IMG/VR virus record: IMGVR_UViG_3300048589_001324
Coordinates: 1-36,121 of that record
Direction: 5' to 3' (one strand)
From: a virus
DNA: 36,121 bases
Shown here: positions 2,437 to 24,411 of the stretch, in pieces
Numbering within the stretch: the first letter of the stretch is position 1
Layout of the letters: the number at the start of each line of letters is the position of its first letter
Notes under the pieces: generated by a model
Told to the model about the DNA's origin: nothing
Databases searched by the model: none
What the model saw: the letters and a program-made list of their open reading frames with translations, nothing else
Program-made: the position numbers and the translations under genes

Positions 2437-3272
2437 GTGAGCCGTTCCAATGCCAATGTGATTTTACCGGGGCTTGGGTATTCAATCGCACGGGTCGGTG
2501 AGTCGGGTGCGTCTGAAATCGGGGTTTTAAGTTTGACGGCATCAACTGCCGCCGTATGCAGCTCCTTGGTGATCCAGGAAACGGAAGGCATCCACCCAAG
2601 CCGCAGCTCACGTTGCCAGGAAAGGAGCAGTGATTTCTGAATCGCGTCGAGTGCGCTCTGCCCATAACCAGGTTTAAGGCGAAAGTCTGCCTGAATATTG
2701 ACAGTCACAGAGTTTGCAACCCTGACTTCCACATCGTCCAAAGCGGGCTTCACGGATTCCCTGGTGAGATATTCAGCCACAGCCCGGGCAAGCCCATTCC
2801 CTATCGCAATCTCTTTGGAGTCCGGGAGAACATAAACGACGACCTTGCCTCCTTCGGGACGAATAGCTGCATCCAGCACTCCATGAACGGCATCCCCCAC
2901 CTTGAATCGTCCCGATAGGATCGCCAGGGCGCGGTACATTTCCCGGGATCCCGCAGGGGATGAAGCGCCGATAGCCAGCAGCACGCGGGAAAGAAAGTCT
3001 GCAAAGGCTTCTCCCTCACGACGCTGCCCCTGAAAGATAAAATCCAATTCACTGGAGAGGGCGACAAGCTGTGCGAGCGCGGCATGGTTGATCTTTTGCC
3101 GGATGATCAGCTCAGAGTAGGCAAGCTCGGAAAGAATCTGATATATGGGATCAGACGGCTGCGGAATCTCAAATTCCGGCACTTCTCTGCGGTAGGTTTC
3201 CGTGAAGCGGGTGAGCTTATCCTGAAAAATTTCACTGTGCTTTAAATCCTCGATTAAAAGGGGAATCTGCAT
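2433..3272 (-). CDS. Baseplate protein J (P2 gpJ / Mu gp47 type)
   Basis: A baseplate wedge protein of 279 residues. Family features are the N-terminal sequence that pairs a short linker with PQPSDPIYQILSELAYSELI, the downstream LDFIFQGQRREGE region and the C-terminal VYVLPD and LTRESVKPALDDVEV stretches. The ATG at 3272 is preceded by GGAGG at 7 bases, so I prefer it to the in-frame TTG two codons earlier. It lies between gpW and gpI as in P2. Confidence is high. Confidence 0.9.
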   Translation of the reverse strand: MQIPLLIEDLKHSEIFQDKLTRFTETYRREVPEFEIPQPSDPIYQILSELAYSELIIRQKINHAALAQLVALSSELDFIFQGQRREGEAFADFLSRVLLAIGASSPAGSREMYRALAILSGRFKVGDAVHGVLDAAIRPEGGKVVVYVLPDSKEIAIGNGLARAVAEYLTRESVKPALDDVEVRVANSVTVNIQADFRLKPGYGQSALDAIQKSLLLSWQRELRLGWMPSVSWITKELHTAAVDAVKLKTPISDAPDSPTRAIEYPSPGKITLALERLT

Positions 3273-3274
3273 GC

Positions 3275-3592
3275 TCAATCCTCCACCTCGACAAGGCTAT
3301 CCCGCCAGGCAATGCGGACCTTAAGTTTGACCCTTGCTTCCTCCACCGAAGGCTCGATGGAGACAAAGCGCACGGAAGGAATGGCCCGCTGGATGCCATC
3401 TCTGATATCGGAAGTAAGATTCAGAAGCCATTCGCTGGTTATGCTTTTGTCGACGTATTGCATCAGATCAAGACCAAACCACCGCATCATGGGGATCGAG
3501 CCCTTTTGCGTGCGAAGGATGCGGCGAATGCACTGCTGGACATAGGGTAATCCCACGAGGAGTTTTCCGGTTCTTTGATCCATGCCCATCAT
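3275..3592 (-). CDS. Baseplate protein W (P2 gpW / T4 gp25 family)
   Basis: This 105-residue baseplate component belongs to the gpW/gp25 family, a lysozyme-like fold without catalysis that nucleates sheath assembly. The family pattern is seen in VQQCIRRILRTQKGSIPM followed by the FGLDLMQYVD segment, and in the C-terminal RDGIQRAIPSVR and VKLKVRIAW. The ATG overlaps the preceding stop (ATGA) and has GGAGGT 8 bases upstream. Order V, (small gene), W, J matches P2-type tails. Confidence 0.9.
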   Translation of the reverse strand: MMGMDQRTGKLLVGLPYVQQCIRRILRTQKGSIPMMRWFGLDLMQYVDKSITSEWLLNLTSDIRDGIQRAIPSVRFVSIEPSVEEARVKLKVRIAWRDSLVEVED

Positions 3593-3777
3593 TGGAGCTT
3601 ACCTCCCGAAAGGGGACCGCCACCAGAAGGGCATGCGCCGACAACCAGGGCGTTTTTTGTTATGTGAGAAAGGATTATCGCGGCCATTTTTTCCCAGGCT
3701 TCGTTGTAGTCCTTGACGTTTTTCATTGCGTTCTTGAGTTCAGACGCGAGGGCGCTTTCGGATCCTTGCAGCGGCAT
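3589..3777 (-). CDS. Small phage protein between gpV and gpW
   Basis: A 62-residue protein of unknown function. The N-terminal half is helical and charged (ASELKNAMKNVKDYNEAWEK); the C-terminal end is glycine- and proline-rich (GACPSGGGPLSGGKLQ). It starts 3 bases after the gpV stop and its stop overlaps the gpW start by 4 bases, so it is translationally coupled within the baseplate operon and likely real. A role in spike or baseplate assembly is suggested only by position. Confidence 0.7.
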   Translation of the reverse strand: MPLQGSESALASELKNAMKNVKDYNEAWEKMAAIILSHITKNALVVGACPSGGGPLSGGKLQ

Positions 3778-3779
3778 GT

Positions 3780-4379
3780 CTATCCAACAAATGATTCCAG
3801 CTTCTCCTTCAAAGGTGGAAGCTGGGTTGAGTTGCCGATGGATTCCCGATCACCCATCATCGTAGGGGTCTTGCTGGTCGCAATGATTTCAGCCATTTCT
3901 GCCAGCGTTGGTATCAGGCTGCAGGTGCTGTTTTTTATCTCGGCCTTGTCCGTTTCAAAGGAAATGGACGTTGCCTTCACCTGGATCTTAAGACCATCCT
4001 GCCTTGTAAGTGAAAGTATGTTTGACGCTGAGTCATAGCTTATTGAGAATCCATCACCAGTTTCAGTCACAAGCAAATCGTCAAGGTCCGAAGGCTGATC
4101 GTAGGTGTCAGAGTAAAGCCCACGGAGGGCGCATCCAAGTGTCAGGTCCCCACCAGGGGAAAGCACCATGCACTGTTCCCCGATGACTGGCGGTTCCCAG
4201 CTGCGGGACTTTCCTGCAGCTCTAGCGAAGAATGGAAGCCAGTCGGTCCTGATATCGCCCGACTCAACGCGAACGAGGCCCTTTGCCAGATCAACTGCCG
4301 AGATGCGGCCATAGCGGAGCATATTCGAGAGGCGCCGGGAAAGTTCACTCACTTCTGCCAGAAGTTCTTCGATATCCAT
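3780..4379 (-). CDS. Baseplate assembly/tail spike protein V (P2 gpV)
   Basis: This 199-residue protein would form the trimeric membrane-piercing spike under the tail tube. After an N-terminal helix (residues 1-25) comes an OB-fold-like region with RISAVDLAKGLVRVESGDIRTDWLPF and a VIGEQCMVLSPGGDLTLG stretch typical of gpV, then a beta-rich C-terminal part (ISYDSASNILSLTRQDG, IQVKATSISFETDKAEI) fitting a beta-helical spike. The ATG has AGGG 6 bases upstream. It is the first P2-like gene after the lambda-like head module, so the head-tail mosaic join lies just upstream. Confidence 0.9.
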   Translation of the reverse strand: MDIEELLAEVSELSRRLSNMLRYGRISAVDLAKGLVRVESGDIRTDWLPFFARAAGKSRSWEPPVIGEQCMVLSPGGDLTLGCALRGLYSDTYDQPSDLDDLLVTETGDGFSISYDSASNILSLTRQDGLKIQVKATSISFETDKAEIKNSTCSLIPTLAEMAEIIATSKTPTMMGDRESIGNSTQLPPLKEKLESFVG

Positions 4380-4387
4380 TGCAAACC

Positions 4388-4822
4388 CTACGCTACTGCG
4401 TTTAACTGGATCATCGCGCCAGAGCGTGGGACGAGGTAATTGATGCGATAGACGTGCTGGGCTGCAGCAGCGACATCAACGCCATCGCCTTCGACTACAA
4501 AATGAACTGACACCAGATCAATCTTTCTTAGAACCTTGGACAGAGATGACCCCAGGAGTACCGCTTCCAACTCGTCGGATAGACTGTAAATTTCATCTTC
4601 GGGATCGAGGCTTGGAATGATCCCAACCTCAACCCGCAGCTCCAGCTCGCGCTCTGTGTAGACGTCCTTGTCATCAAGGACCTGCTCACTTGGAAAATAG
4701 ATCAAGGCTGCAGGAAAATCGGCAGAATCAAGAGGCGACGTCCGGGCGCTGAATCTTTGGATATTTAGTTTTGATTGCAGAAGTCTACGGACTTCATTGC
4801 GGATCTCTTTACGGTTGTGCAT
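4388..4822 (-). CDS. Tail terminator/completion-like protein
   Basis: A 144-residue protein between the head connectors and the contractile tail genes, where tail terminator (lambda gpU-like) proteins are found. The sequence has a helical N-terminus (NRKEIRNEVRRLLQSKLN), then ELELRVEVGIIP and a YSLSDELEAVLLGS segment, a layout common in tail terminators that measure a mixed alpha/beta domain. The ATG at 4822 overlaps the previous stop (TGATG); a TTG one codon earlier is also in frame. No specific family motif is decisive, so the role is inferred from position and fold pattern. Confidence 0.5.
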   Translation of the reverse strand: MHNRKEIRNEVRRLLQSKLNIQRFSARTSPLDSADFPAALIYFPSEQVLDDKDVYTERELELRVEVGIIPSLDPEDEIYSLSDELEAVLLGSSLSKVLRKIDLVSVHFVVEGDGVDVAAAAQHVYRINYLVPRSGAMIQLNAVA

Positions 4823-5121
4823 CAAAACTTTCCGATGGCAAGGCTATCGTTTCCACTCCTGGCGCGTTCAAGATCCAGCTCCACCACGCCGACTCCGCTG
4901 ACAAATGCCTCTTTGATGACGTAGACGACTCCGGTTTCAAGTCGTCTGATTTTCAGCCCCTTTTGCAAATCGCCGCCGGCTTCTGTACTCACATGCAGGA
5001 TGGCCTTCAGACTATTTACGGTGGGCTTCAGCTGGCTTGACTTGTCCGAATACTCGAAGAAGTGCCCGTTGACCGGGCTTTTGTCTTCAACAAGAAAGTT
5101 CTCTGCTTCCAGGCTTTTCAT
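4822..5121 (-). CDS. Head-tail joining/stopper-like protein
   Basis: A 99-residue protein directly downstream of the major capsid gene. Its beta-rich sequence (KAILHVSTEAGGDLQKGLKIRR, TGVVYVIKEAFVSGVGVVELDLE, paraphrased in two parts) and its place between capsid and tail genes fit the small head-completion proteins that seal the head-tail junction (lambda FII-like position). The ATG overlaps the capsid stop (TGATGA), indicating translational coupling. Function is inferred from position. Confidence 0.5.
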   Translation of the reverse strand: MKSLEAENFLVEDKSPVNGHFFEYSDKSSQLKPTVNSLKAILHVSTEAGGDLQKGLKIRRLETGVVYVIKEAFVSGVGVVELDLERARSGNDSLAIGKF

Positions 5122-6149
5122 CAGGCCACCTGCATCAGGCAGGCCGCGTTGGGATCATAGGAAACCAGGAGTGGCGCGGATTGAATCATGATGTACCGAT
5201 GGCTTGGGTCTTCACTTTCCCAGCTTTTCAGGAAGAAAGGCATGGCCTTGAGTTGAGCCTTGCGGTCTTTGATGGCTCCGAAGTGGCGAACGCCGTCGAT
5301 GGAACGTCCGATCAGGAGGGCTTCACCAGGATCAAAGAACTGTTTCTCGCGGCCATCGTCCAGGTAGGTTCCATAGTGTACAAATACGTTGTAGTCACCA
5401 AAGGACCCCTTGTATTGGATATCCTCTGATTGCTCCTTCGGCGTCAGGACGACTGAAGAGTCCACGTTGCGAAGCAAGGTTGCTGCCGCTCTTACCTCTT
5501 TGTTGTTGCGAAAGAGAGTCCAGGCCCGGGAACCGAGAATGAGGTCATTCGCCCGCGCATTGCGATTGGATTTGGTTGCAACCCTGCGACTCTTGTCCTC
5601 AAGGAACTCGGTCATATTGAGATCAAGGTTTGTCCATTTCTGATCATCGGGCAGGTCGGTTATTGTGAGCTCCGCATCACGGCCAAAATCCAGTTGCGCA
5701 CTGAGGCCTTCGCCGATAATGGTGGCCTTGCCTGTTTTGCACACTTCAGTTGCCATGACTTCGAGGCGATTCTGGAGCCGTTCCCGCAACCTCTCAGTAT
5801 CCAAAACAACGTGAAGGCGCATGCGCTGCTCGGCGCTAAGGGAGCCACCGAATGGCTCGCCTGCAAGACGCTTGAGCGGACGCTCCGCATCGTGAACGAC
5901 TTTTTCCTTCACGTAAGCAGGTTTATAGGACTTTGTCTCGTATCCTTCATGTGTAAGGAGCTTGCCCTGATGAAGAGGATGTACGAACGGTGAGATGCCT
6001 TCGGAGGATTCCACGACGTCGAAGTAAACTTCCTCGGATTCGTGGGTGACTTCAGTAGGAAAGTACCTATTAAGAAAGAAGCGGGGCTGGAGTTTCAGCC
6101 GGTTTACCACGCGATGCAGGTGGTAGGTGGAGTAGATCGGAAGAGTCAA
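5121..6149 (-). CDS. Major capsid protein (lambda gpE family)
   Basis: This 342-residue shell protein matches the lambda gpE capsid family in length and pattern: an N-terminal segment with FFLNRYFPTEVTHESEEVYF, then GISPFVHPLHQGKLLTHEGY, and a C-terminal MPFFLKSWESEDPSHRYIM where lambda-type capsids have a conserved tryptophan-rich turn before SAPLL. The start is TTG with AAGG 6 bases upstream. It follows the decoration protein gene, as E follows D in lambda. Confidence is high. Confidence 0.92.
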   Translation of the reverse strand: MTLPIYSTYHLHRVVNRLKLQPRFFLNRYFPTEVTHESEEVYFDVVESSEGISPFVHPLHQGKLLTHEGYETKSYKPAYVKEKVVHDAERPLKRLAGEPFGGSLSAEQRMRLHVVLDTERLRERLQNRLEVMATEVCKTGKATIIGEGLSAQLDFGRDAELTITDLPDDQKWTNLDLNMTEFLEDKSRRVATKSNRNARANDLILGSRAWTLFRNNKEVRAAATLLRNVDSSVVLTPKEQSEDIQYKGSFGDYNVFVHYGTYLDDGREKQFFDPGEALLIGRSIDGVRHFGAIKDRKAQLKAMPFFLKSWESEDPSHRYIMIQSAPLLVSYDPNAACLMQVA

Positions 6150-6180
6150 AGTAAACCTTAAAAATATAATCCATTACGGA

Positions 6181-6201
6181 GCAGCCAGTTTGCAGGGCTG
6201 C
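6181..6201 (-). other. Inverted repeat between decoration and capsid genes
   Basis: GCAGCC and GGCTGC form 6-bp arms around a 9-base spacer in the only sizeable gap (77 bases) of the head operon. No T-run follows it, so it is not a standard terminator. It could modulate message stability or capsid expression; this is inference. Confidence 0.35.
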
Positions 6202-6226
6202 CATTCAAAACAAGGACGGTGCTAGG

Positions 6227-6610
6227 TCAGCCTTGAAAAAAGATCGACCTCAGTTCCATTTTTTCTTTAATGCTGGCGATCGTATGCCCTTTGCCAAGAG
6301 TCAGACTCTTTGGATAGAAAGACCCCGTGAGGTAGGCTATCGTCTGGTGATCATCTTTACTGGCATCTACATCCTCAGCCAGGATTCGGCTGGGATCTTC
6401 ACTGCCGTCCTTGATCTCGGCGTTTGCGCCATTGACCCTTGACGACATCACGTACTTGCCTGAGTCAGTTTTCCTGCCGAGCACCGTGCCTCGCTTAAGG
6501 TTCTGTCCAGCTTCAAGAATAATGGTTTCCGAAAGAAGGTTGAAATCGCCCGCTATGAGATCAAGAGGCTGATAGGAGGCCACATCCCCGAATTTTGGTT
6601 CATATCCCAT
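6227..6610 (-). CDS. Head decoration protein (lambda gpD family)
   Basis: A 127-residue capsid-stabilising protein. It has the HDPD-type pattern: an N-terminal segment before AGDFNLLSETIILEAGQNLK, then RGTVLGRKTDSGKYV, RILAEDVDAS and a C-terminal strand. I chose the ATG at 6610 because GAGGTGAAT immediately precedes it and the upstream in-frame extension only reads through the end of the protease gene. It is located between protease and major capsid genes as in lambda (C, D, E). Confidence 0.88.
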   Translation of the reverse strand: MGYEPKFGDVASYQPLDLIAGDFNLLSETIILEAGQNLKRGTVLGRKTDSGKYVMSSRVNGANAEIKDGSEDPSRILAEDVDASKDDHQTIAYLTGSFYPKSLTLGKGHTIASIKEKMELRSIFFQG

Positions 6611-6617
6611 ATTCACC

Positions 6618-6971
6618 TCACGCCACGAGGCCAAGTTTGATAGCCAGTTCGATGTCGGCATCAGCCTCATCGTCAGCCGGTACATCCTGCTTTTTGGACG
6701 TCACCTTATCCAGCAGCCGGTCAGCTTCGACCAACCGCGTAACGCCTGCTTTGGCGTCCCGATCGGCTTCCGTCAGGACCTTGAAAGCAGCCTCCTCCAC
6801 GCTTAGTCCTTCGTCGATCAACGACTCGCAGAACTGCTGGGATACCCGTCCACGGCATAGGCTTTGAATGGTTACAATGCGCTTTCGTTCCTGGACTCTG
6901 ACCTGCTCCAGTGCGGACGCATTGATTTTACTTGCGGGCTCCGAGCCTGCATCTTCTGTCAATTCACTCAT
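6618..6971 (-). CDS. Probable nested scaffold protein (lambda Nu3-like, same frame as protease C-terminus)
   Basis: An in-frame ATG at 6971 opens a 117-residue product equal to the protease C-terminal domain (MSELTEDAGSEPASK to IELAIKLGLVA). AAGG lies 5 bases upstream. The segment is charged and helical (ALEQVRVQERKRIVTI, AAFKVLTEADRDAKAGV), as scaffolds are. In lambda, Nu3 is made from an internal start inside C, so the arrangement is a known one; the internal start here is inferred from the ribosome-site spacing. Confidence 0.45.
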   Translation of the reverse strand: MSELTEDAGSEPASKINASALEQVRVQERKRIVTIQSLCRGRVSQQFCESLIDEGLSVEEAAFKVLTEADRDAKAGVTRLVEADRLLDKVTSKKQDVPADDEADADIELAIKLGLVA

Positions 6972-7739
6972 TAGACCTTCAAATGTTGCTATACGATCAA
7001 TCATCCCTCGCATCCGCGCCTCTTCGCTGAGAAAGGTTGCGCCCTGACCAAAGGATTTCAGTACGGTTTCGATTGCGGTGCCACGATTTCTGGCCACCTT
7101 CCCGACGAATATCTCTCCGAGGTTATCCACAATACGCTGGACTTCGCGGGCTCCGGTTTCTGTCGCAGGGTCGGCATTTTTGAGGGGGGATTGGGAACTC
7201 ACAAAGCGAAGTTCTGACGGATCGCTTTTCGATCGAATCACTGACTGGACACCGATGCTTCCAATCATGGCTGTTTCAGAAGCGACAATACGAGTGCATG
7301 CCGACGCGATCCAGTAGGCAGCGGAGCAGCCCTGGCCACTGATATAGGCTATGATTGGCTTTTTGGAGCGCGAGGAAAAGACAAACTCGGCGAGATCACT
7401 GCAGCCATTGGCCTCACCCCCAGGAGAATCGATATTGAGGACAATTGATTTGACTGAGGCATCATCAAGGAGAGTTGCAAGATCGCGGAATGCCATCTCA
7501 TAGCTTGTGACGGCACACACCTCGGTGATGAGGTTTGCTCGTTTGAACATCGCCCCCTGGATTGGGACAATTCCGACTCCATCCCTAACGGTGGATGAGT
7601 GTGCATAGCCAGGACGCTTGCCCAGGCTCTTTTCAAGAGCGTGTGGTTCCATTCCACGATCTGCAACTGTGATGAGAAATCGAAGCCCGGCTTCATTCAT
7701 CGCCCACGGTATCAACTCAATCATCGAAGCCAGACTCAT
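6618..7739 (-). CDS. Head maturation protease, S49 family (lambda gpC-like)
   Basis: A 373-residue serine protease that would process the procapsid. Counting from the ATG at 7739 (preceded by GGAGGGAAA), the signature LNIDSPGGEANG lies at about 102-113, the nucleophile serine is Ser139 in SGQGCSAAYWIAS, and a lysine near 187 (SPLKNADPATETG) is spaced like the lambda gpC dyad partner. AMIGSIGVQ also matches S49 enzymes. The first 55 codons of the longer open frame lack a ribosome site and are left out. Normally this gene abuts the portal gene; here a 4.4-kb island separates them. Confidence 0.9.
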   Translation of the reverse strand: MSLASMIELIPWAMNEAGLRFLITVADRGMEPHALEKSLGKRPGYAHSSTVRDGVGIVPIQGAMFKRANLITEVCAVTSYEMAFRDLATLLDDASVKSIVLNIDSPGGEANGCSDLAEFVFSSRSKKPIIAYISGQGCSAAYWIASACTRIVASETAMIGSIGVQSVIRSKSDPSELRFVSSQSPLKNADPATETGAREVQRIVDNLGEIFVGKVARNRGTAIETVLKSFGQGATFLSEEARMRGMIDRIATFEGLMSELTEDAGSEPASKINASALEQVRVQERKRIVTIQSLCRGRVSQQFCESLIDEGLSVEEAAFKVLTEADRDAKAGVTRLVEADRLLDKVTSKKQDVPADDEADADIELAIKLGLVA

Positions 7740-7905
7740 TTTCCCTCCACGAAACGGAAGATAGTCGATCTCTGTACAGGAGTCACTGGAGTCGGCGATG
7801 ACCACCGGAAAGCAGACGAATCCAGGGTTCACTAACCGCAAGAATCTCATTGACCCCAGACGCTTTGTGTTTCTATGCTTTCCAAAAGAAAAACGAGGTA
7901 TCAAA

Positions 7906-8325
7906 ATGGTTCGACTGATCGCATTCCGGCGTTATCTCAGTTTTATACTGATTATTGCAGCTCTTTCTGCACTATCACCAAACCCGTATTCCCTTCAGTT
8001 GGTTCCCACATTCGTCCGCCCCAGGGCCTTCATATTTTCTCTTATTCCGCTCGCGTCGATGTTTCTAATCCACGGAATATCAGTCTTTAGAAGGATATTC
8101 ATCGAACGCGATTCGGGGCTTCGACGAGGACTCCAATCGAGAATCATTATTTTTGGCCTGCTGGCATTGATTTTTCTTGCTGCAAAGTGCCTCAAGACTC
8201 TGGATAATACCGACAATATCGGGCCAAACGTCATGGCTGGAATTACGCTTTTCTTCTGGCCTTTGTTACCGTCGTGGTATCTATACGCAGATACAGACTG
8301 CAAAAAAAGATGCCGAGAATCTTAA
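7906..8325 (+). CDS. Predicted inner-membrane protein, unknown
   Basis: A 139-residue protein with about four hydrophobic segments: LSFILIIAALSAL, FSLIPLASMFLIHGISVF, IIIFGLLALIFLAAKCL and MAGITLFFWPLLPSWYLYA. No family is recognised. The ATG at 7906 follows GAGGT at 6 bases, better than the earlier in-frame ATG at 7798, which lies in the leader of the divergent protease gene. It is read opposite to the phage structural genes and marks the left end of the sensory island. Its membrane topology fits a phage-borne envelope modifier, but nothing specific can be said. Confidence 0.6.
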   Translation: MVRLIAFRRYLSFILIIAALSALSPNPYSLQLVPTFVRPRAFIFSLIPLASMFLIHGISVFRRIFIERDSGLRRGLQSRIIIFGLLALIFLAAKCLKTLDNTDNIGPNVMAGITLFFWPLLPSWYLYADTDCKKRCRES

Positions 8326-8473
8326 GATATTGTTATGAATAAATGCAAAGCGCTGGATTAGAGGCGTCTCGGATGTCGTGAGTTTCTTGGTGGATTCAGG
8401 ACGTTGTTCTTGAAAGCCTCCATAGCGACCAGCCATATAAAAACTGCCTTGAGTATCGAAGGTGGCTTAGTCG

Positions 8474-8893
8474 TTAGGATTTACCCGAATTTGGTTTTGA
8501 TGCCTCCAAAATGTATTTAAAGCTCGATGCTTTTGCTTCGGAAATGGCTCTGTGCAAAGTTTGAATCAAGACTGGCGGTGGAACCGGCTTTTTTAGCACG
8601 GAATGTACGTTTGAAAGTGAGGATTGGAAATCACCGATATCCGCTCCAGTATAAATCACAATCGGAATGCCGGGTTGGCTTTCAGCAATAGTTTGAGCAA
8701 AGCTTATTCCACTCATTCCCGGCATTATAAAGTCCGTGAGCACAGCTTCAACTTTTACACCCTTTAGTATTTCAAGTGCCGATTCTGCATCGAAGGATTT
8801 TATAACATCGAATCCTACTGATTCTAGCAGTTCTCCAATAGTTTCAAGAATATGAGTATCGTCGTCAACGAATAGAATTCTTTTACCTACCAC
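8474..8893 (-). CDS. Single-domain response regulator (REC, CheY-like)
   Basis: A stand-alone receiver domain with no output domain. Counting from the longer TTG start at 8908, the acidic cluster DDD is at 15-17, the phospho-acceptor is Asp59 in LTDFIMPGMSG, the switch Thr is T87 (IYTGAD) and the conserved Lys-Pro is K107-P108. All catalytic positions are present, so it should be phosphorylated by a histidine kinase, which is not in the window. I favour the GTG at 8893 because AAGGA is 7 bases upstream. It shares the strand with the chemoreceptor-rhodanese gene but is separated by 209 bases, so it probably has its own promoter. Confidence 0.85.
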   Translation of the reverse strand: MVGKRILFVDDDTHILETIGELLESVGFDVIKSFDAESALEILKGVKVEAVLTDFIMPGMSGISFAQTIAESQPGIPIVIYTGADIGDFQSSLSNVHSVLKKPVPPPVLIQTLHRAISEAKASSFKYILEASKPNSGKS

Positions 8894-9102
8894 AACTTGT
8901 TCCTTCAAATTTTATCATTATCAAATAATAGACCTAAAAATTTGTTCAATCGTGATAATCCGCAAGAGCTATTTGCCAGCCATCTCTTTACTTGAACCTG
9001 TCAGATTCTGTTGGGGCAAAAAAGCAATATAACACTGTAGCAATTATCTTTTGATCCCTGGATTGCAACAGTAAAGCTTTCTATGGATCAAAAAGCAGTG
9101 AT

Positions 9103-10188
9103 CTAAGGACGTGTGACGGTCGGCAGCTTCAGCTTGTTCCACTGCAACATGCCACCATTCAAATTGTAGATTCGATCGTAGTCGAAGGATTGAGCTAGGC
9201 GAGCCGCCCGAGATGAACGCCCTCCACTACGGCAGACAAAGAGATACGCCTGATCTCTATCCCCATTCTTCAGGAAAAGTTCCAGGTCAGGCCCCAAGGT
9301 TTTGAGGACAGCACCCGGGATGTGAGAAAGCTCGTCATTGAATTCTTCAACCTTGCGAACGTCAATGACTCTAAAGTCTGCGAGATTATCTTTGACCTCA
9401 ACCGGGTCCAGGTCTTTAATATGACGACCCGTTAGGCACCCTATTAGATCACTTGTCATTTTTGTCAGTTGTTCTAACTCATCTTTCACTGTTTTTTGGA
9501 AATCCTGTGCACTTAGTACAGTACTATGGCAATCCTCCTTGAGCCCCTCAATTTGAGCCTTTTGACGTTTGGCTTCCTGCAACAATTTTTCTGTACTTTG
9601 GTGTAGGGCTTCCGAGCCATGAGACACACGTTCTTCGATTTTATGGAACTGCTCCACTGCAGATGCTGTAATCTGTTCTAGCTGGCTGACATTGTCTTTA
9701 ATTTTTTTCGCAGCCACCTGACTGCTTCGAGCCAAGTCCCGAACTGACTGTGCAACCACTGAAAACGTTTTGCCATGTTCACCTGCGCGAGCTGCTTCCA
9801 CAGAGGCGTTCAAAGATAGAATATTAGTTTGGGTGACTACGTCTTCAATGCTCTTAAGATTTTGAACCATTTGTCGAGTCAGATCGAGAGTTTCTCTCAG
9901 TTCGCCTGCGACCTTGGGAATATCTGCAATTCCAAGACTCAAGGCGTCTATCATCCGCTTTTGCAGAAGGAAACTTTTCTCCAGATCATCATTGCAGGTC
10001 TTGATCTCAGTTGAGCTTTTTTCAAAGCGAAAAATTGCTTTGATTAAGCCATCAAAAACTTGGGATATTGATTGAGTCATATCAAACTGTCGAGCGAAAA
10101 GACCGCGAACTAGACTTTGTCCTTCTTGAGAAAGATCTGTAACAGACGAATTTGAGGTTTTTGCCTTAAACTTGAACCATTTTATCAT
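9103..10188 (-). CDS. Soluble chemoreceptor signalling domain fused to rhodanese
   Basis: A 361-residue protein with no transmembrane segment. Residues about 20-250 are coiled-coil, with the chemoreceptor hairpin tip at about 120-155 (QTNILSLNASVEAARAGEHG, then FSVVAQSVRDLARSS), the region that contacts CheA and CheW. Residues about 255-355 form a rhodanese domain with IDVRKVEEF, HIPGAV and the active loop C319-RSGGRS, a persulfide-carrying cysteine. This suggests a cytoplasmic receptor sensing sulfane sulfur or redox state, acting through the host array; no CheA or CheW is encoded here. It is read divergently from the MarR-cytochrome pair. The fusion is directly seen; the ligand is inferred. 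Confidence 0.88.
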   Translation of the reverse strand: MIKWFKFKAKTSNSSVTDLSQEGQSLVRGLFARQFDMTQSISQVFDGLIKAIFRFEKSSTEIKTCNDDLEKSFLLQKRMIDALSLGIADIPKVAGELRETLDLTRQMVQNLKSIEDVVTQTNILSLNASVEAARAGEHGKTFSVVAQSVRDLARSSQVAAKKIKDNVSQLEQITASAVEQFHKIEERVSHGSEALHQSTEKLLQEAKRQKAQIEGLKEDCHSTVLSAQDFQKTVKDELEQLTKMTSDLIGCLTGRHIKDLDPVEVKDNLADFRVIDVRKVEEFNDELSHIPGAVLKTLGPDLELFLKNGDRDQAYLFVCRSGGRSSRAARLAQSFDYDRIYNLNGGMLQWNKLKLPTVTRP

Positions 10189-10217
10189 CTCTGTTCCAAT
10201 ACCTTCTGTTTGTTCCT

Positions 10218-10247
10218 ATAGTAGCATCCCTAGTTGTGATGTATCAA
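10218..10247 (-). promoter_or_regulatory. Putative sigma70-type promoter of the chemoreceptor-rhodanese gene
   Basis: On the minus strand TTGATA (10247-10242) and TACTAT (10223-10218) are separated by 18 bases, about 30 bases upstream of the start at 10188. The remaining part of the 10189-10558 gap holds the MarR-side operator and no further gene. Confidence 0.5.
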
Positions 10248-10466
10248 ACTGGATTTTTTGACGAACCGAGGAATAGGGAGCTACTCCAAGCCATTTTTAA
10301 TCATGAATCCCTTACTCATTTCGAGACTATCCGAAAACCTCAACGTGCTTAAATCCTGCCAGCGTGCGGGAGGTTGAGATTGCGAACTCGAAAATCTCTA
10401 TTGACGCTAAACGTCGGTTCGGACAAAGAAATTTGCAAGCAGTGCTTCAAATATCTCCGCCCTATT

Positions 10467-10486
10467 TTAGTTGCGATCGCAACTAA
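10467..10486. promoter_or_regulatory. Perfect 20-bp palindrome, candidate MarR operator
   Basis: TTAGTTGCGATCGCAACTAA is perfectly self-complementary, about 70 bases upstream of the MarR gene. MarR-family dimers bind inverted repeats of this size, and GTTGC/GCAAC half-sites are common among them. It overlaps the -35 box of the predicted promoter, so binding should repress marR and the cytochrome gene. The palindrome is seen; the binding protein is inferred. Confidence 0.65.
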
Positions 10487-10500
10487 TGTTGTGGTATGCA
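10471..10500 (+). promoter_or_regulatory. Putative promoter of the MarR-cytochrome operon
   Basis: TTGCGA (10471-10476) and TATGCA (10495-10500) are 18 bases apart, with the palindrome covering the -35 box. The match to consensus is moderate; position and operator overlap support it. Confidence 0.4.
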
Positions 10501-10558
10501 TCTCCTAGTCCTTGGCACTCTGGATACTTCGATGCACCAGTAAGTCGGAGAAAACACT

Positions 10559-11017
10559 ATTTCTGAGAATAAAAGTCGGAAAACATCGCTGGAGCTTAGA
10601 AAACTTCTTCAACAAGTAGTGAGAAGATTTGGAGTCCTAAAAGAGCAGACAACTCCTTGTGGCAAGAAGTTGAGCATCACGCAAGCTCATGCCCTCATGA
10701 TTTTGCTGGAGGCTGAAAAGAGTTCTTCTGAGATCCGCCAGCAGGAATTAGTTAAAGAATTGAATATAGACAAGAGCAATGTTGCTCGTTTGTGCCAGAA
10801 AATGACAGACGTAGGTCACATTGTTCAAAAGAGAAGTGACTTAGATGCTCGAAGTTGGCAACTTGGTCTTACGAGTCGCGGACTGAAAATGGCACAACAA
10901 CTCGAAGACTCTAGTTTGGACAGATTTTCAAGGCTCTTGGAGTCGATACCAGAAGATCAGCGTGGAAAAGTAATAGCAAGTCTGAGAATTCTTTCAGAAG
11001 CAATGGATAGCTTATAA
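10559..11017 (+). CDS. MarR-family transcriptional regulator
   Basis: A winged-helix regulator of about 152 residues. The DNA-binding part includes LSITQAHALMILLEAEKSSS, QELVKELNIDKSNVARLCQKM and the wing with RSDLDARSWQLGLTSRG. The usual N-terminal dimer helix (SLELRKLLQQVVRRFGVLK) is encoded only if translation begins upstream of the GTG at 10619. In that frame no ATG, GTG or TTG gives the full helix; an ATT at 10559 has GGAG 8 bases upstream, so I propose ATT initiation (alternatives: CTG at 10589, GTG at 10619). It is followed after 24 bases by the cytochrome gene and probably controls both. A cysteine in EQTTPCGKK could be redox-responsive, which is speculative. Confidence 0.82.
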   Translation: MSENKSRKTSLELRKLLQQVVRRFGVLKEQTTPCGKKLSITQAHALMILLEAEKSSSEIRQQELVKELNIDKSNVARLCQKMTDVGHIVQKRSDLDARSWQLGLTSRGLKMAQQLEDSSLDRFSRLLESIPEDQRGKVIASLRILSEAMDSL

Positions 11018-11041
11018 TTTTACAAAGAAAGGAGTTCATCT

Positions 11042-11575
11042 ATGTATTTGGATTACAAGAAAGTAGCTTGTTCTGTCTTCGCTGCGAGCTTGTATGCTCA
11101 ATCTGCTTATGCTGCATCGCAACGAAATGAAGGAAGTGGTATGAACGGATCAGTGAAAGGCTTGCTTGAAATGGAAGACCTGGATAAGCGAAAGCCGGTC
11201 ACGCTTACACCGGAAATGGCGCTTCATCAGAAACAAAACATGAGAGAGCACCTGGAAGCTATTCAATCGATTGTTAGTGCTCTTATAAAGGATGATTTTG
11301 CGGCAGTTGAGCAGGCGGCGAAAAGGATTGGATATTCTAAACAAATGGAGCAAATGTGCACTCATATGGGTGCGGGTGCGCCTGGATTCACGGAGTTGGC
11401 TCTTCATTTTCACAGGACTGCTGATACGATCGGCGAAGCAGCAAGATTCAAGGACCGGAAGGCGACCTTAAGCGCTCTTGATAGAACACTCCAGACTTGC
11501 ACGAGCTGCCATGCACAGTTTCGTCAGAAGATTGTCGAGGGACCTCACAAAATGCACGAGTCTGGAAAGAAGTAG
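11042..11575 (+). CDS. Periplasmic c-type cytochrome (cytochrome c'/c556-like)
   Basis: A 177-residue exported haem protein. A signal peptide spans about 1-24 (hydrophobic core ACSVFAASLY, cleavage near SAYA-AS). A single haem-binding motif, C153-T-S-C156-H157, lies near the C-terminus, and methionines in TPEMALHQKQNMREHL near 59-67 are placed like the axial ligand helix of cytochrome c'/c556 four-helix proteins. AAAGGAG precedes the ATG. It probably forms an operon with the MarR gene, so its expression would respond to whatever MarR senses. The role (gas binding, electron transfer or stress protection) is not determined by the sequence. Confidence 0.82.
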   Translation: MYLDYKKVACSVFAASLYAQSAYAASQRNEGSGMNGSVKGLLEMEDLDKRKPVTLTPEMALHQKQNMREHLEAIQSIVSALIKDDFAAVEQAAKRIGYSKQMEQMCTHMGAGAPGFTELALHFHRTADTIGEAARFKDRKATLSALDRTLQTCTSCHAQFRQKIVEGPHKMHESGKK

Positions 11576-11603
11576 GTTTCGTATCGGCTGATTTGGAGCG
11601 TCT

Positions 11604-11960
11604 TCAAGCAGCCTTCACTTTATTCCTGAGGTTTCGGATGTGCGTCACAACTTTGTTTGAATTCTCAGCAAACTTGCTTTTCGCACCCAGGGCCATTTCA
11701 TCTGTAACTTTCTCACCTCTTTTTGCTCGCCTGATAATTTCAGCCGCTTCTTTATGAAAGTCTGCGTGGGCTCCTTTGAGAAATCCGAATTCTGGTTCCG
11801 CTGAATATAATGATCCTTCTCCGTGTATCCATTTCCCGAGAGCACACTGATCGTCTTTACAGACCATATCTGGATTGAGGGAGTCATCAGGACTTCTAAT
11901 ATAGTTTGAGAGTTTCATTTTCCACGCGGCATGGGCTTGGATGGCATCATCAAAATTCAT
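11604..11960 (-). CDS. Stand-alone CZB (chemoreceptor zinc-binding) domain protein
   Basis: A 118-residue single-domain protein. The CZB pattern is complete: H10 (with W13) near the N-terminus, C39 in CALGKWIHG, and H65 and H69 in HADFH, giving the 3-His/1-Cys zinc site. CZB domains usually end chemoreceptors or diguanylate cyclases and respond to zinc and to oxidation of the zinc-bound cysteine. Here it stands alone. AAAGGAG precedes the ATG at 7-8 bases. It converges on the cytochrome gene, 28 bases apart. The function is inferred to be zinc/redox sensing, possibly acting in trans on a receptor. Confidence 0.85.
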   Translation of the reverse strand: MNFDDAIQAHAAWKMKLSNYIRSPDDSLNPDMVCKDDQCALGKWIHGEGSLYSAEPEFGFLKGAHADFHKEAAEIIRRAKRGEKVTDEMALGAKSKFAENSNKVVTHIRNLRNKVKAA

Positions 11961-12180
11961 AGTCGCTCCTTTGAATTTTTCCTACTGCTTGCTTGATCGG
12001 CAAAGATCAGTGAGACGTTAGCTTTGTATTTTTAATATTCGGATTTAATTGACCATTATTGCTGTTAATCTGTAAGTTATGCCGCGTGATAGCTGGTTAA
12101 CGTAGATGATCTCTTGATGACTGACGGATTGCGTAGGCTTGAGTGTAAAGGCCTGTTTGAAAATTCTAAGTCAGAGGTGC

Positions 12181-13638
12181 TCAGTAAGACTGCGTCACAT
12201 CAACCGCCGATTTGTCAGGTTGCTCACTGGCGATCTCTCTCTGAAGCTTCTCAAAGTCGCGTCCTTCCCCTTCAACAATCGAACGCCTGGATGCTGTTTG
12301 AGTGCTTAATCTGGTTTCATCAGCCTTAGCGTCCTTCAGTCTGTCGATGGATGGCATGGATGGCCCAACCCACTCGGCAGAGGTATAGATCCTGCGCTTG
12401 ACCACGTTGGAAAAATCCGGTGCAGATAACATTCCCTTCGCCACTGCCTCTCCGAGCGCCCACTCATAGAAAGGCTGACAAATTTTGGATACTGTCCAGG
12501 CGCGACGGATCATGACAAACTTCCACGCTTCCAACAGCGCTGCACGAGCAGCTGTGTAAGACGACTGGAAGTTCTGAGTCAGAACCTCGAAAGGGATGGA
12601 TAGTCCCATACCGATCTGCTGAAGCACCGCCTGGATGAACGGCTGATAATTGGCATTCGGTCGGCCCGGTGTAAGTGTCTCCACCTTTTCACCCGGCAGC
12701 ATATTGAGCAGCATGCCCGACCCGAATTTCTCTTTGGATCTGGTTTGCATGTTCGCCTGCCGCGACGCAAGGTGGATGTCCTTTCGGTCCCCGAATGGCC
12801 CGTGACCTTCACTCGTGACGAATACACTGAAAAATGCACTGATCACTGCCGCCATAATTTCGCTTTCCGTATAGCGACTAAGCTGTTTGAATCGCTCGAC
12901 GACCGGAGCAAGGAACGGTTCGCCCCGTGTTTGTCCGGGCAGGCGGCTGTGGAAGACATGAAGTGCGATCGGATTGCCATCCGCGTCGAAACGTGGAATG
13001 CGTATGGTTCTCTCCGGCTGGAGGGTTTGCAACCTGTCCCGGTTCACGATGTGATAGGCCACAGCCTCGCCATCCTCGTTCAACTCAACTCCCTCTCGGA
13101 TGTCCTTGTCCGCACCTCCAAAGTCCGGGTTGCGCAGACGGGAGCCTTCAATGATCTGGATACAGGTTCCAAGGATGGCACCCGGTCCCGGCTTGTAGCG
13201 CTTGAGAATGAGGCAGTCTCCATCAAGCAGTACCGAACGCAGCGCTATGGCCTGATTGATCCCAAAGGGGTTTGACCTTGTAAAATCGGAATAGACCGAG
13301 CTGGCATGAAGCGCAAAGATTCGTTCGGCTGCTTTTTCAAACTCCCGCGCCTTCTGCTCAGGGATTCCCAGAACCTGATGATCCAGCTTCGCTTGTGGCC
13401 TCAATCCATCCGCTACCACGTTGCTGACCGTATTCTCGACAGCCCCTCTCGCAATGGCTTCGTTACGGTCGAGATCATGGCTCTGATTCCGCAAGGCAGA
13501 AAGAGCGGGCAGAATCGCCTCGTCGGCACTGGCGTCAGGTGGATTCCAATGCTCAACAGCGGGGTTGCTTCGGGATGTCGATCGGTACGGGCTTTCCGGT
13601 ATGAGAACACCAGCCTCTGTTTCAATATATCCGGTCAA
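12181..13638 (-). CDS. Portal protein (lambda gpB family)
   Basis: This 485-residue protein would form the dodecameric portal ring through which DNA enters the head. Lambda-portal patterns include RNEAIARGAVENTVSNVVADG, the IEGSRLRNPDF turn, the YHIVNRD motif and QQIGMGLSIPFEVLTQNFQS followed by YTAARAALLEAWK. Length is slightly below lambda gpB (533). The protease normally follows at once; instead a CZB gene and the sensory island lie downstream. The C-terminus (EQPDKSAVDVTQSY) looks intact, so the insertion did not obviously truncate it. Confidence 0.93.
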   Translation of the reverse strand: MTGYIETEAGVLIPESPYRSTSRSNPAVEHWNPPDASADEAILPALSALRNQSHDLDRNEAIARGAVENTVSNVVADGLRPQAKLDHQVLGIPEQKAREFEKAAERIFALHASSVYSDFTRSNPFGINQAIALRSVLLDGDCLILKRYKPGPGAILGTCIQIIEGSRLRNPDFGGADKDIREGVELNEDGEAVAYHIVNRDRLQTLQPERTIRIPRFDADGNPIALHVFHSRLPGQTRGEPFLAPVVERFKQLSRYTESEIMAAVISAFFSVFVTSEGHGPFGDRKDIHLASRQANMQTRSKEKFGSGMLLNMLPGEKVETLTPGRPNANYQPFIQAVLQQIGMGLSIPFEVLTQNFQSSYTAARAALLEAWKFVMIRRAWTVSKICQPFYEWALGEAVAKGMLSAPDFSNVVKRRIYTSAEWVGPSMPSIDRLKDAKADETRLSTQTASRRSIVEGEGRDFEKLQREIASEQPDKSAVDVTQSY

Positions 13639-13646
13639 TTGCTGTC

Positions 13647-13856
13647 CTATCCTGGTACCACGAACTCGATATCAGATCCCCCTTCACGCGAAACCATGCG
13701 GCGCAGGAAGGCTTCACGTCGGTAGAGTTCCTTCAGGTCACCGCGCTTGACGCTTCGTCTGTTCATATTCACTTCCAGGTCAAACTCCTGACCGCCTGAT
13801 TCAATAGCTTCAATGGCTCGCTGGACGCTATCCAGCTGTTCTCTATATGTCTTCAT
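13647..13856 (-). CDS. Head-tail joining protein W (lambda gpW family)
   Basis: A 69-residue protein, the same size as lambda gpW (68), between terL and portal as in lambda (A, W, B). It has a helical start (KTYREQLDSVQRAIEAIESG), then SVKRGDLKELYRREAFL. The ATG overlaps the terL stop by 4 bases (ATGA) with GGAGGG upstream inside terL; a start nine codons earlier lacks this support. It attaches to the portal after packaging to close the head. Confidence 0.88.
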   Translation of the reverse strand: MKTYREQLDSVQRAIEAIESGGQEFDLEVNMNRRSVKRGDLKELYRREAFLRRMVSREGGSDIEFVVPG

Positions 13857-15754
13857 GCCACTTTTCCCTCCAACGTGTCGCATAGCCTGTCGATATTGAT
13901 GTCCAGGAAATGTCGGGCGGCGTCGGCATAGCGAAGGCAGTCGTGGGCGTGGTCGGCAACACCATCAGTCGATTCATAAGCCAGCTGGAACCCGCCCTCG
14001 CGTTTGACCCAGCGTGCCTTTGGTGCGGAAACCTCCTTGTAAAAAGACGGATCCAGACCTTTATGAAAATGGATGATTTGTGCCCTGCGATATTCGGTCT
14101 TTATGCCGTTTCTTGCTTTCTCCCGGTACTCCTTGCGGCTGCTGATCGATCGTGCAATGTCGGAAAATAAGCGCCCGTGTGTGGCAAGCTTGCCGACCCT
14201 GAACAGGTAGACATTCTCGTCCTTGAGCAGCGTGGGCTTATCAATGATAGGGGCCGACGGGTTACCGATGCCTTTTATTGCAATCACGCAGTCCCCCAAT
14301 CTGGGCCGACAGAAGTCATAAACGGCAGCGGTTGTATGCCCCCCGGTGTCGACACTAGCAGCTGCAATACGAAGCTTTTCGCCGCGACTATGAGTATAGG
14401 TGGTCAAGAGCTTATCCTCGACGCGAGCCCAGGTCGACATCTCGTTGCCGTCGCCATAAATAACCCAGTAGTCCAGCACCCAGCTTTCACCGTCCCGACC
14501 CCATGCCCTCGTACAGATGTTGATATGGTTTGGATGTGTATCAATCCCAGCGGTAACTAGAGCAGCACCAGCGGGAAGAATGGTGGCAGGATCATAATCC
14601 TCGGCAAGTGCCTGGATATCCCCGGCATCCAAAGAAGCGACCGAGCGATCCTCCCAAGTCTCGCCCAGGCAATTGTTCACGAACACTTTAAGCTCGACCG
14701 GGTTCTCATACCCCTTTTTGAAGAGCTCCACGCAGCTTTTCCAGGAGTACATCCCGACCGGGGCATAGAGAGCCGGTAAAAAATAGCCGCGAACATTGGG
14801 GAATATTGCGGTAGCAGTTGGACGCCATTGTCCTCCAGCAAGCATTTCTGTTTTGTCCTGCTCATAGTGACTTGCGTTACACCTGATGCAGCGGAAAACG
14901 GGCACCTTCCCCGAAAAGTCTATTTGCTTCCATACGATCACCTGCGGTTCGCCGCACGATAAGCAGGGGACAAAGAACTTGCGCTGGTCCGTGGTCAGAT
15001 ATTCCTGCTCGATCCGGCACTGGCCAGCGATTGTCGGGGTAGAGATATAAAATATTTTTTTGCGACCTTCGTAGGCACTGGTTCGGCCAATGGCAATTCC
15101 GCAAGGATCGCCTTCACCTTGGCAATCCAGATCATAGGCCGACACTTCGTCGAACACGATGAACTGAATGCTGTCCGACCGCAGCGATATTGCGCTTTTG
15201 CTGGTCCCAAGGTTCAGAAAGCCACCAGGAAAGAGCTTGGTGATGATGGTATCTTTCTCCTTGGTCTTGTCGCGCTTATAGCGCTCTAAATCCTTGATCT
15301 TACCCTGAAGGGATTTGCAGTTGGCCACAATCGGGGCTATGCGCTGCTTTGAGAATTTGGCGCGAAGTTCATCGGAAGGCTGGACGATAAGCATAGGTGC
15401 TGGGTTCACGTCCATCACCCATAGCATAAATGCCAAAGCCGATAGCGTTCCTCCGGTTTGCCAACCTTTCTGCAGGACAACCTTCTCCACCCCATTGTCG
15501 GGCATAAGAGCATCCAGAATTTCGCGGAGGTAAGGTGTTCGGTCGAAATCGACCAAACCGGGGAAGGGGTTCTTGCCGCTGACAAGGTAGAGATTTCGAG
15601 ACGCATGATTGATGATCGAGATGTCGGGATTGGGCAGAGTGCCAAGCGCGAAGTCATCGGTCACGGAAACAAGGTCAGAATACACGCGGTCAATCAGTGG
15701 AGGCGTCCTCGGCAGAGGTGGCAGAAGCGGTGAAGCGAGAGTCAGCGAGGTCAC
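13853..15754 (-). CDS. Terminase large subunit (lambda gpA family)
   Basis: A 633-residue packaging motor and cos-cutting nuclease. The ATPase domain has a deviant P-loop with the lysine at its start (VLQKGWQTGGT, near 93-103), as in lambda gpA, and a Walker B with acidic end (IQFIVFDEVSAYD, near 195-207). A zinc-binding-like CLSCG and CIRCN pair lies near 266-290. The nuclease domain has VTAGIDTHPNHI and SVDTGGHTTAA. The GTG start has AGGG 6 bases upstream and overlaps terS by 65 bases; a later start is possible. The lambda type predicts cos packaging. Confidence 0.93.
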   Translation of the reverse strand: MTSLTLASPLLPPLPRTPPLIDRVYSDLVSVTDDFALGTLPNPDISIINHASRNLYLVSGKNPFPGLVDFDRTPYLREILDALMPDNGVEKVVLQKGWQTGGTLSALAFMLWVMDVNPAPMLIVQPSDELRAKFSKQRIAPIVANCKSLQGKIKDLERYKRDKTKEKDTIITKLFPGGFLNLGTSKSAISLRSDSIQFIVFDEVSAYDLDCQGEGDPCGIAIGRTSAYEGRKKIFYISTPTIAGQCRIEQEYLTTDQRKFFVPCLSCGEPQVIVWKQIDFSGKVPVFRCIRCNASHYEQDKTEMLAGGQWRPTATAIFPNVRGYFLPALYAPVGMYSWKSCVELFKKGYENPVELKVFVNNCLGETWEDRSVASLDAGDIQALAEDYDPATILPAGAALVTAGIDTHPNHINICTRAWGRDGESWVLDYWVIYGDGNEMSTWARVEDKLLTTYTHSRGEKLRIAAASVDTGGHTTAAVYDFCRPRLGDCVIAIKGIGNPSAPIIDKPTLLKDENVYLFRVGKLATHGRLFSDIARSISSRKEYREKARNGIKTEYRRAQIIHFHKGLDPSFYKEVSAPKARWVKREGGFQLAYESTDGVADHAHDCLRYADAARHFLDINIDRLCDTLEGKVA

Positions 15755-16346
15755 GAAGAGCCCTGGTCAGTGCATCTTTCATGACGATGCGAATACGGGC
15801 CACGAGATCATCAATTTCGTATTCATAGCTATCGATCTGCTGTTCATCAAACCTATCCGCGATAAAGGAGCGGACTTGCCTTTTGATCTCGGCGGATATT
15901 GCCTGTGGTGTGTAGAGAACCGCATCCCTGGTAGCACGCGCGGCCTGGAATGCTTCGATTCGATATTTCTCGGCGGAAATGAGAGTGCCTGCTTTCTCCA
16001 GATAGGCCAGCTTGCTAAGGAGGGCAGTATAGTGACGATCCATGGCGATGGATTCACTCGTTGGCATGACATCTTCATGCGAAGGGCGACTGGTTGATTG
16101 GTTGGGCAGGTGATGGCGATCGGTGTGATCCTTGTCCAACCTCGCGTTTTGAAAGAACTCCTGCACGCCGAGAGCAGCATCGATCAGGTAGTTGTTTTCC
16201 ACGCGGGTGACTGATTTGGAGAGCCTTCCGCTCTTGATCGCCTTGCTCACAGTTTGCTTTGAAATCTGCAAAAGATCCGCAAACTCTACTGTATTCAATT
16301 GCTTAGCCAAGTCGATTTTTCTTTGCTGTAGTGTTGAGTGGATCAA
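15690..16346 (-). CDS. Terminase small subunit (Nu1-like, HTH)
   Basis: A 218-residue protein with an N-terminal DNA-binding helix-turn-helix (VEFADLLQISKQTVSKAIKS, near 20-39) followed by a helical oligomerisation region. It directly precedes terL with overlapping ends, the place of lambda Nu1, and would recognise the packaging site. The TTG start has no clear ribosome site; a TTG 12 codons later is an alternative. Identity rests on HTH plus position. Confidence 0.78.
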   Translation of the reverse strand: MIHSTLQQRKIDLAKQLNTVEFADLLQISKQTVSKAIKSGRLSKSVTRVENNYLIDAALGVQEFFQNARLDKDHTDRHHLPNQSTSRPSHEDVMPTSESIAMDRHYTALLSKLAYLEKAGTLISAEKYRIEAFQAARATRDAVLYTPQAISAEIKRQVRSFIADRFDEQQIDSYEYEIDDLVARIRIVMKDALTRALRDLADSRFTASATSAEDASTD

Positions 16347-16413
16347 AAAGCCAGGGATGATTTGGGCGTTTGCAGTCAGTCACCTCGAAAATTTTCATCA
16401 TCGCCCGAGCGGC

Positions 16414-16433
16414 AGGGGTGCCTCGTCACCCCT
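16414..16433. other. Inverted repeat upstream of terS, candidate cosN or terminator
   Basis: AGGGGTG and CACCCCT form perfect 7-bp arms around CCTCGT, 68-87 bases upstream of terS. Lambda-type terminases cut a rotationally symmetric site upstream of Nu1, so this is the best cos candidate. A second short palindrome, GAAAATTTTC, lies at 16387-16396. Read on the plus strand it is followed by CTGATTTTATT and could be a weak terminator instead. The rest of 16347-16718 is AT-rich, with no gene seen, and should carry promoters for the genes on both sides. Confidence 0.35.
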
Positions 16434-16718
16434 CTGATTTTATTGAGGAAAGGACCCATGCGCTATTGAAGCTTTGCTTGAGATTGCAAGAGATATTTTG
16501 CATAAGCATTGATTTTTATTTATCTATTCAACATTGAGGCTTGCGTTAACCAAAGTCACGAGAGCAGAGCTTTGCAGCCAGTGGTTCGTGCTTTTCTAAT
16601 CCGTTCTATAGCAGTGTGCTAGTGAAAGCAATGTCATCAACGTCGATCACCGTAGTAGTAACATTCACGGAAACAATTATTAAAATGGCCAGTTATAGAA
16701 GTATGGACTAGGTTTTTA

Positions 16719-20944: not shown

Positions 20945-20974
20945 CGAAATACTCCAGTTCAAGCGGGGAAAGCA

Positions 20975-24277: not shown

Positions 24278-24411
24278 ATTCACTCTCACTTTATGTATTC
24301 AAAAGGGGTTGAGTAAAACTTCCTGTTCTGGATATTTGTATGTAGGCACAATAGACTTAGCCTTTCATGGCCGCCGCACTCCCTGGGGTGTACCGTGCTT
24401 ACCTGGGCTTT

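Follow-up and report, generated by a model that had tools for sequence, protein, structure and literature searches.

Putative Sensory Cargo at the Portal–Protease Junction of a Tailed Phage

Cargo at the Portal–Protease Junction

The virus record IMGVR_UViG_3300048589_001324 (36,121 bases, referred to here as the window, the whole stretch of DNA that was analyzed) carries a group of bacterial-type genes between its portal and head-maturation protease genes. The head and tail genes of the window are on the minus strand, and the head genes follow the order terminase, portal, S49 protease, decoration protein, and major capsid protein. This order is broken by a portal–protease gap of ~4.4 kb. Starting from the portal side, the gap contains genes for a CZB-only protein, a secreted cytochrome, a MarR-family regulator, a soluble chemoreceptor (MCP) fused to a rhodanese, a receiver, and a membrane open reading frame (ORF), as listed in Table 1. 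All of the proteins named in the initial annotation were found and put through family tests, and the mixed strands and the ~4.4 kb separation were confirmed. The GC content is low, 0.42–0.46 in the island and 0.51–0.55 in the flanks, and that of third codon positions is 0.33–0.46 for island genes and 0.54–0.61 for structural genes.

Table 1. Features of the Window in and around the Portal–Protease Junction
Feature	Position	Strand	Evidence and remarks
S49 head-maturation protease	6618..7739	-	PF01343 E 9.6e-20, phrog_53 E 2.5e-69; right boundary of junction
Small membrane ORF beside protease	7906..8325	+	in flank common to L005
Single-domain receiver, without output domain	8474..8908	-	PF00072 E 1.8e-17, only Pfam family over cutoff
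Soluble chemoreceptor (MCP) with C-terminal rhodanese, 361 aa	9103..10188	-	PF00015 E 2.1e-26, PF00581 E 3.2e-15
Perfect 20-bp palindrome	10467..10486		between divergent MCP-rhodanese and MarR-cytochrome genes
MarR-family regulator	10619..11017	+	PF12802 E 6.1e-10; 24 bp upstream of same-strand cytochrome gene
Secreted c-type cytochrome, cytochrome c′-like	11042..11575	+	signal-peptide-like N terminus, CTSCH near C terminus
Stand-alone CZB protein, predicted to bind zinc, 118 aa	11604..11960	-	PF13682 E 3.4e-13, above cutoff
Portal protein	12181..13638	-	PF05136 E 1.4e-87; left boundary of junction
Terminase	13853-15754		head genes of window

Related contigs establish that the portal–protease junction accepts different cargos. 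A portal-profile scan of viral contigs gathered a clade with portals at least 50% identical. The contigs L004 and L005 match both flanks of the window, where 88–96% of nucleotides are identical, and their similarity breaks off sharply within the junction. L005 matches without a break over two stretches, 2449–8307 and 12315–16463 (95–96% identity). The match to L004 is unbroken up to 7752 and picks up again at 12310. The homology of these close relatives to the window thus stops at 12310–12315, inside the 3′ end of the portal gene. An HNH nuclease and a β-barrel protein occupy the junction of L004, and uncharacterized proteins occupy that of L005, so that three phages with portals 94–96% identical carry three different cargos.

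Both a portal and a protease gene are present in 22 related contigs, of which 12 have an empty junction and 10 a loaded one. Clustering of the portals at 90% identity, with the window included, gave 4 empty and 6 loaded clusters; the contigs of the clade are fragments, many of them from one numeric metagenome series, and these counts are therefore not independent. The distance from the portal stop codon to the protease match is -9 to 144 bp for empty junctions, and the loaded ones contain 1.4–2.5 kb of cargo. Since the cargo varies even inside portal clusters, its turnover is taken to be fast. The portal–protease junction is well supported as a hotspot for cargo (moron) genes in a poorly known clade of tailed phages. 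The initial annotation had described a set inserted at this position and had suggested a search for relatives with an empty junction; the insertion was borne out, and such relatives were found. No transposase was seen at the junction, and no convincing flanking repeats were found there as traces of insertion. The mapped hotspot offers a simple place to seek more cargo, defense genes included, in this phage group.

The slot of one related phage is occupied by an IscB-like RRXRR + HNH protein (L057:1521-2807). A second cargo region of the window (18072-24289, GC 0.43–0.48) lies between the terminase small subunit and the early genes and encodes complete-looking HsdS, HsdM, and HsdR proteins of a type I restriction-modification system. 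No near DNA relative of the window was matched in the annotated phage collection.

The boundaries of the island were also considered. The most likely start codon of the protease is the ATG at 7739, which is preceded by GGAGG; a TTG at 7904 was set aside in favor of this codon. The initial annotation had counted the membrane protein among the members of the island. This ORF lies within the flank shared with L005, is ~84% identical to its L005 counterpart in amino acid sequence with a ratio of nonsynonymous to synonymous substitution (dN/dS) of ~1.3, and is interrupted by a stop codon in L005. For these reasons, it is probably a decaying or doubtful gene of the flank and was left out of the sensory set. 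A distant homologue occurs elsewhere in L052–L054.

The Receiver and CZB Pair and Its Companions

A scan of viral contigs for CZB proteins returned L007 and L008, which are 99.9% identical to each other and thus represent one phage. The portal, terminase, and capsid proteins of this phage are 51, 41, and 46% identical to those of the window. Its portal–protease junction nevertheless contains the same pair of genes, a receiver and a CZB protein, with amino acid identities of 74 and 80%, respectively, to the proteins of the window; the CZB gene of L007 is located at 8001-8357. Synonymous sites are saturated in the CZB comparison (proportion of differing synonymous sites, pS, 0.88), and the high protein identity is therefore attributed to constraint and not to very recent transfer. 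CZB proteins were found in 2 of the 16 relatives examined, both of them records of this same phage.

Homologues of the receiver are present in three other phages of the clade (63–73% identity). The values of dN/dS are 0.14–0.17, and the receiver is under purifying selection. The acidic pocket at D15–D17 and the residues D59, T87, and K107 are invariant in the four phage sequences. In two of these phages, the receiver gene lies away from the junction, once next to a VapBC-like pair located upstream of the terminase genes and once within the early region. The VapB–VapC-like pair, named by eye, adjoins the receiver gene at L112:7120-7835. No cellular relative of the receiver was found at an E value of 1e-24 or better in 291 Bdellovibrionota genomes, in a scan that had no positive control and shows little.

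Residues H10, W13, C39, H65, and H69 of the CZB protein are conserved, and the His and Cys residues among them, together with the L-G-K-W that follows C39, are invariant between the two phage proteins. By analogy with DgcZ, H65 and H69 are presumed to be zinc ligands. The CZB protein of the window contains the C-A-L-G motif found in the CZB-only subgroup. CZB-only proteins make up 27.1% of CZB sequences, and the position after the cysteine is Ala or unconserved in them (PMC8262984). In a phylogenetic tree, the proteins from the window and L007 form a clade (support 100/96) inside a group (98/94) of cellular CZB-only proteins, which are encoded in Bdellovibrionota and Myxococcota genomes. No report of a phage-encoded CZB protein was found in searches of the open literature, which is weak evidence of absence.

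Cellular CZB-only genes were fetched by two seven-residue patterns. Among the 25 loci obtained, mostly betaproteobacterial and hence not a basis for a general proportion, 13 have a same-strand MCP gene that ends 25–50 bp before the start of the CZB gene. Three of these MCPs were confirmed by Pfam, and two of them have CXXCH before the HAMP domain (L018:6336-8345 and L022:6346-8330, betaproteobacterial genes each followed by a CZB-only gene within 50 bp). This neighborhood may be read as a precedent for partnership between CZB-only proteins and chemoreceptors.

The MCP-rhodanese of the window is read as soluble because no hydrophobic segment with KD19 ≥1.6 is present. The signaling tip, QTNILSLNASVEAARAGEHGKTFSVVA, aligns with that of the soluble Thermotoga receptor 2ch7 and matches receptors that couple to CheA. 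The active-site loop of the rhodanese, CRSGGRS, was aligned with CRAGGRS of the persulfide-dioxygenase fusion BpPRF (5ve3). The key residues of the zinc, rhodanese, receiver, and MCP-tip sites are thus intact, in agreement with the sensory character that had been proposed for these proteins. A soluble MCP-rhodanese fusion is also encoded in the cellular genome L144.

The description of the cytochrome as cytochrome c′-like is based on the CXXCH motif and a weak best fold match. The Pfam family Cytochrom_C_2 scored 23.9 bits, below the cutoff of 26.5, and the best Foldseek match of the structure model (mean pLDDT 56) was cytochrome c′ 1rcp with an E value of 0.24. Structure models obtained from single sequences were poor, with mean pLDDT values of 56 and 50. 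The start of the MarR gene is unsure. No stop codon interrupts the frame just ahead of the GTG at 10619 (window 10544-10621, SLELRKLLQQVV...), and the only nearby candidate start is an ATT at 10559 behind GGAG.

The palindrome TTAGTTGCGATCGCAACTAA is the only copy in the window when up to 3 mismatches are allowed, and it is the only palindrome with arms of at least 7 in the 36 kb. Arms of 10 were also obtained in 1 of 20 shuffled sequences, and so its reading as a candidate MarR operator rests on its position.

The initial annotation had suggested that the set of six genes may be one sensory module. A search for the same set in related phages returned the full set in the window record only and the receiver and CZB pair in L007/L008. 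Single-protein scans of the viral collection, which reach close relatives only, returned no relatives of the MCP-rhodanese, cytochrome, and MarR proteins. Because only the receiver and CZB pair recurs, and does so at this junction in a diverged phage, the pair is retained as the supported unit and the remaining genes are regarded as particular to this phage; the six-gene unit was rejected, with the membrane ORF also outside the set. The recurrent pair is a small, testable two-gene unit.

Proposed Role and Alternative Explanations

The cassette of ~3.5 kb (8474-11960) is interpreted, with about even confidence, as conversion cargo that adds redox, zinc, and sulfane-sulfur inputs to the chemosensory signaling of the host. 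The core of the cassette would be the single-domain receiver and the CZB-only protein, with the soluble MCP-rhodanese and the MarR-cytochrome unit, divergent around the 20-bp palindrome, as extras of this phage. The zinc occupancy of the CZB protein would report oxidants or zinc, as has been proposed for McpA (preprint PMC13370339), and the rhodanese cysteine would report sulfane sulfur. The MCP hairpin would hand the signal to the CheA/CheW array of the host. The receiver may accept phosphate from a host kinase, acting either as a CheY-like competitor or as a phosphate sink. In response to an electrophile or a redox signal, the MarR protein would relieve repression of its own unit, and the cytochrome c′-like protein in the periplasm may buffer NO or electrons. 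The location, the empty and loaded junctions, the intact residues, the purifying selection on the receiver, and the recurrence of the pair are shown by the sequences, and the signaling, the MarR binding, and the benefit to the carrier are inferred from them.

The clade probably persists in the form of phage-plasmids. This reading is based on the lack of a tyrosine integrase and the presence of ParA and ParB in relatives. No tyrosine integrase (PF00589) was found in 17 clade records, most of them fragments, in comparison with 14 of 14 control genomes that were positive; serine recombinases were not searched. ParA is encoded in 5 of the 17 records, all of them at least 32 kb in length. ParB adjoins ParA in the three records inspected by Pfam, and these include the receiver and CZB phage, which also encodes a KfrA-like protein. 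The initial annotation had suggested lysogenic conversion. The cargo part of that suggestion is kept, integration is unsupported, and conversion would proceed via a plasmid-like state. ParA-ParB genes lie near baseplate genes at L131:2556-4359, L138:2727-4581, and L141:6950-8669. Collagen-like repeat proteins, probably tail fibers, are encoded at L137:807-3682 and L131:11965-13179 in phages of the clade. A Bdellovibrionota host was considered by way of related prophages and rejected, with terminases at best 39% and portals 22–28% identical, outside the clade.

Several observations weigh against a role in host chemosensory signaling. The MCP, MarR, and cytochrome genes occur in this record only, and their link to the receiver and CZB core is thus a single observation; no MCP domain was found in 15 relatives of the clade. 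No ParA was found in the window, which is a fragment. Promoter-like and terminator-like sites in the island are not enriched over shuffled sequence. In Bdellovibrionales, the CZB-only gene is followed not by an MCP gene but by a PilZ-like gene (named by eye), which allows a role in cyclic di-GMP (c-di-GMP) signaling. A further proposal, held tentatively and as possible rather than probable, is that the clade keeps the CZB-only/receiver pair as a portable junction core and adds receptors such as the MCP-rhodanese, so that a carried phage-plasmid would rewire the redox, zinc, or sulfur taxis of its host.

The strongest alternative, considered rather unlikely, is that unrelated host genes were captured one at a time at a permissive junction, with no shared sensory pathway and with a redox theme that is coincidental. 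The unrelated cargo at this junction in other phages (HNH nuclease, β-barrel protein, IscB-like nuclease, and uncharacterized proteins) is what such piecemeal capture would leave, as are the mixed strands, the confinement of the MCP, MarR, and cytochrome genes to this phage, and the two relatives with a receiver at other loci and without a CZB gene. It accounts less well for the joint presence of receiver and CZB genes at the same junction at a portal identity of 51%, given that no other examined record of the clade has a CZB gene, and for the linkage of cellular CZB-only genes to MCPs.

It is unlikely, though conceivable, that the cassette is instead a tool for takeover of the cell. As a phosphate sink or decoy, the receiver would then turn off a histidine kinase of the host in the course of infection, the CZB protein would be a redox trigger, and chemotaxis of the carrier would be beside the point. 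A receiver with intact phosphorylation residues and no output domain, found in four phages and at loci of three kinds, is consistent with this possibility; the gene is on the strand opposite to the neighboring phage genes in three of the four, and three of the four carriers have no MCP domain. The receiver of the window, however, is accompanied by an MCP and by a MarR unit that has a candidate operator of its own, an arrangement that resembles sensing more than shut-off.

A function of the CZB protein in surface attachment, by way of c-di-GMP in a DgcZ- or PilZ-like manner and not in chemotaxis, is regarded as quite improbable. The sole NCBIfam match of the protein is a model of DgcZ-type diguanylate cyclases, and its Trp three residues after the first His has been described for the cyclase subgroup (PMC8262984); the PilZ-like gene that follows the Bdellovibrionales CZB-only genes points the same way. 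The island, however, contains no GGDEF, EAL, or PilZ gene by Pfam, and an MCP gene precedes 13 of the 25 cellular CZB-only genes. A reading of the island as a defense system was rejected, since the MCP and the receiver gave weak PADLOC matches that resemble cross-hits to coiled coils or to receiver domains. Misassembly of host DNA into the phage contig, suggested by the low GC content and the cellular gene types, is extremely improbable and appears ruled out as far as sequence allows, because both flanks are continuous with independent contigs (to 8307 and from 12315, in L005), the two outermost genes of the island are found again at this junction in two more records (near-identical to each other), and the junction of other phages is likewise loaded with cargo.

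The cargo of phages is best known for toxins, resistance, defense, and metabolism. If the proposed role in chemosensory signaling is correct, inputs able to steer the swimming of an infected cell would represent another kind of benefit or manipulation.

Comparison with Known Systems

The cassette resembles phage morons and other lysogenic-conversion cargo in that extra, phage-specific genes of differing GC content lie between conserved head genes and are absent in close relatives. It differs from them in its larger size (~3.5 kb, five genes), in its signaling proteins, and in having no enrichment of promoters or terminators that could be found. The clade shares with phage-plasmids (PMC11652158, PMC9600943) the occurrence of ParA and ParB (in some records) alongside genes for phage structure, no tyrosine integrase in the records searched, and accessory cargo, with the difference that the window is a fragment and the partition genes are known here from relatives alone.

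MCPs carried by phages are not new as such. When the phage collection was searched at the protein level, MCP domains were detected in a few phages, and the one in the jumbo Vibrio phage vB_VmeM-Yong XC31 was verified. The MCP signaling domain of that phage is part of a protein annotated as hypothetical (L179:142-1974), in which it is combined with dCache and HAMP domains and without a rhodanese. The chromosomal soluble MCP-rhodanese of L144, a Bdellovibrionota genome, has the identical domain order; it is 28% identical to the protein of the window, and its active-site loop is CEDGSKS in place of CRSGGRS. Chemoreceptors of the TlpD/McpA type also bring together a chemoreceptor and a CZB domain, for which redox or zinc sensing has been proposed (PMC6715182, PMC13370339). 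In the window, however, CZB is a separate gene and the receptor bears a rhodanese instead. The closest likeness of the CZB protein is to the CZB-only proteins (PMC8262984), with which it shares the 3His-1Cys set, the Ala after the Cys, and the lack of any further domain, whereas the proteins described here are phage-encoded and form a clade of their own beside the members from Bdellovibrionota and Myxococcota.

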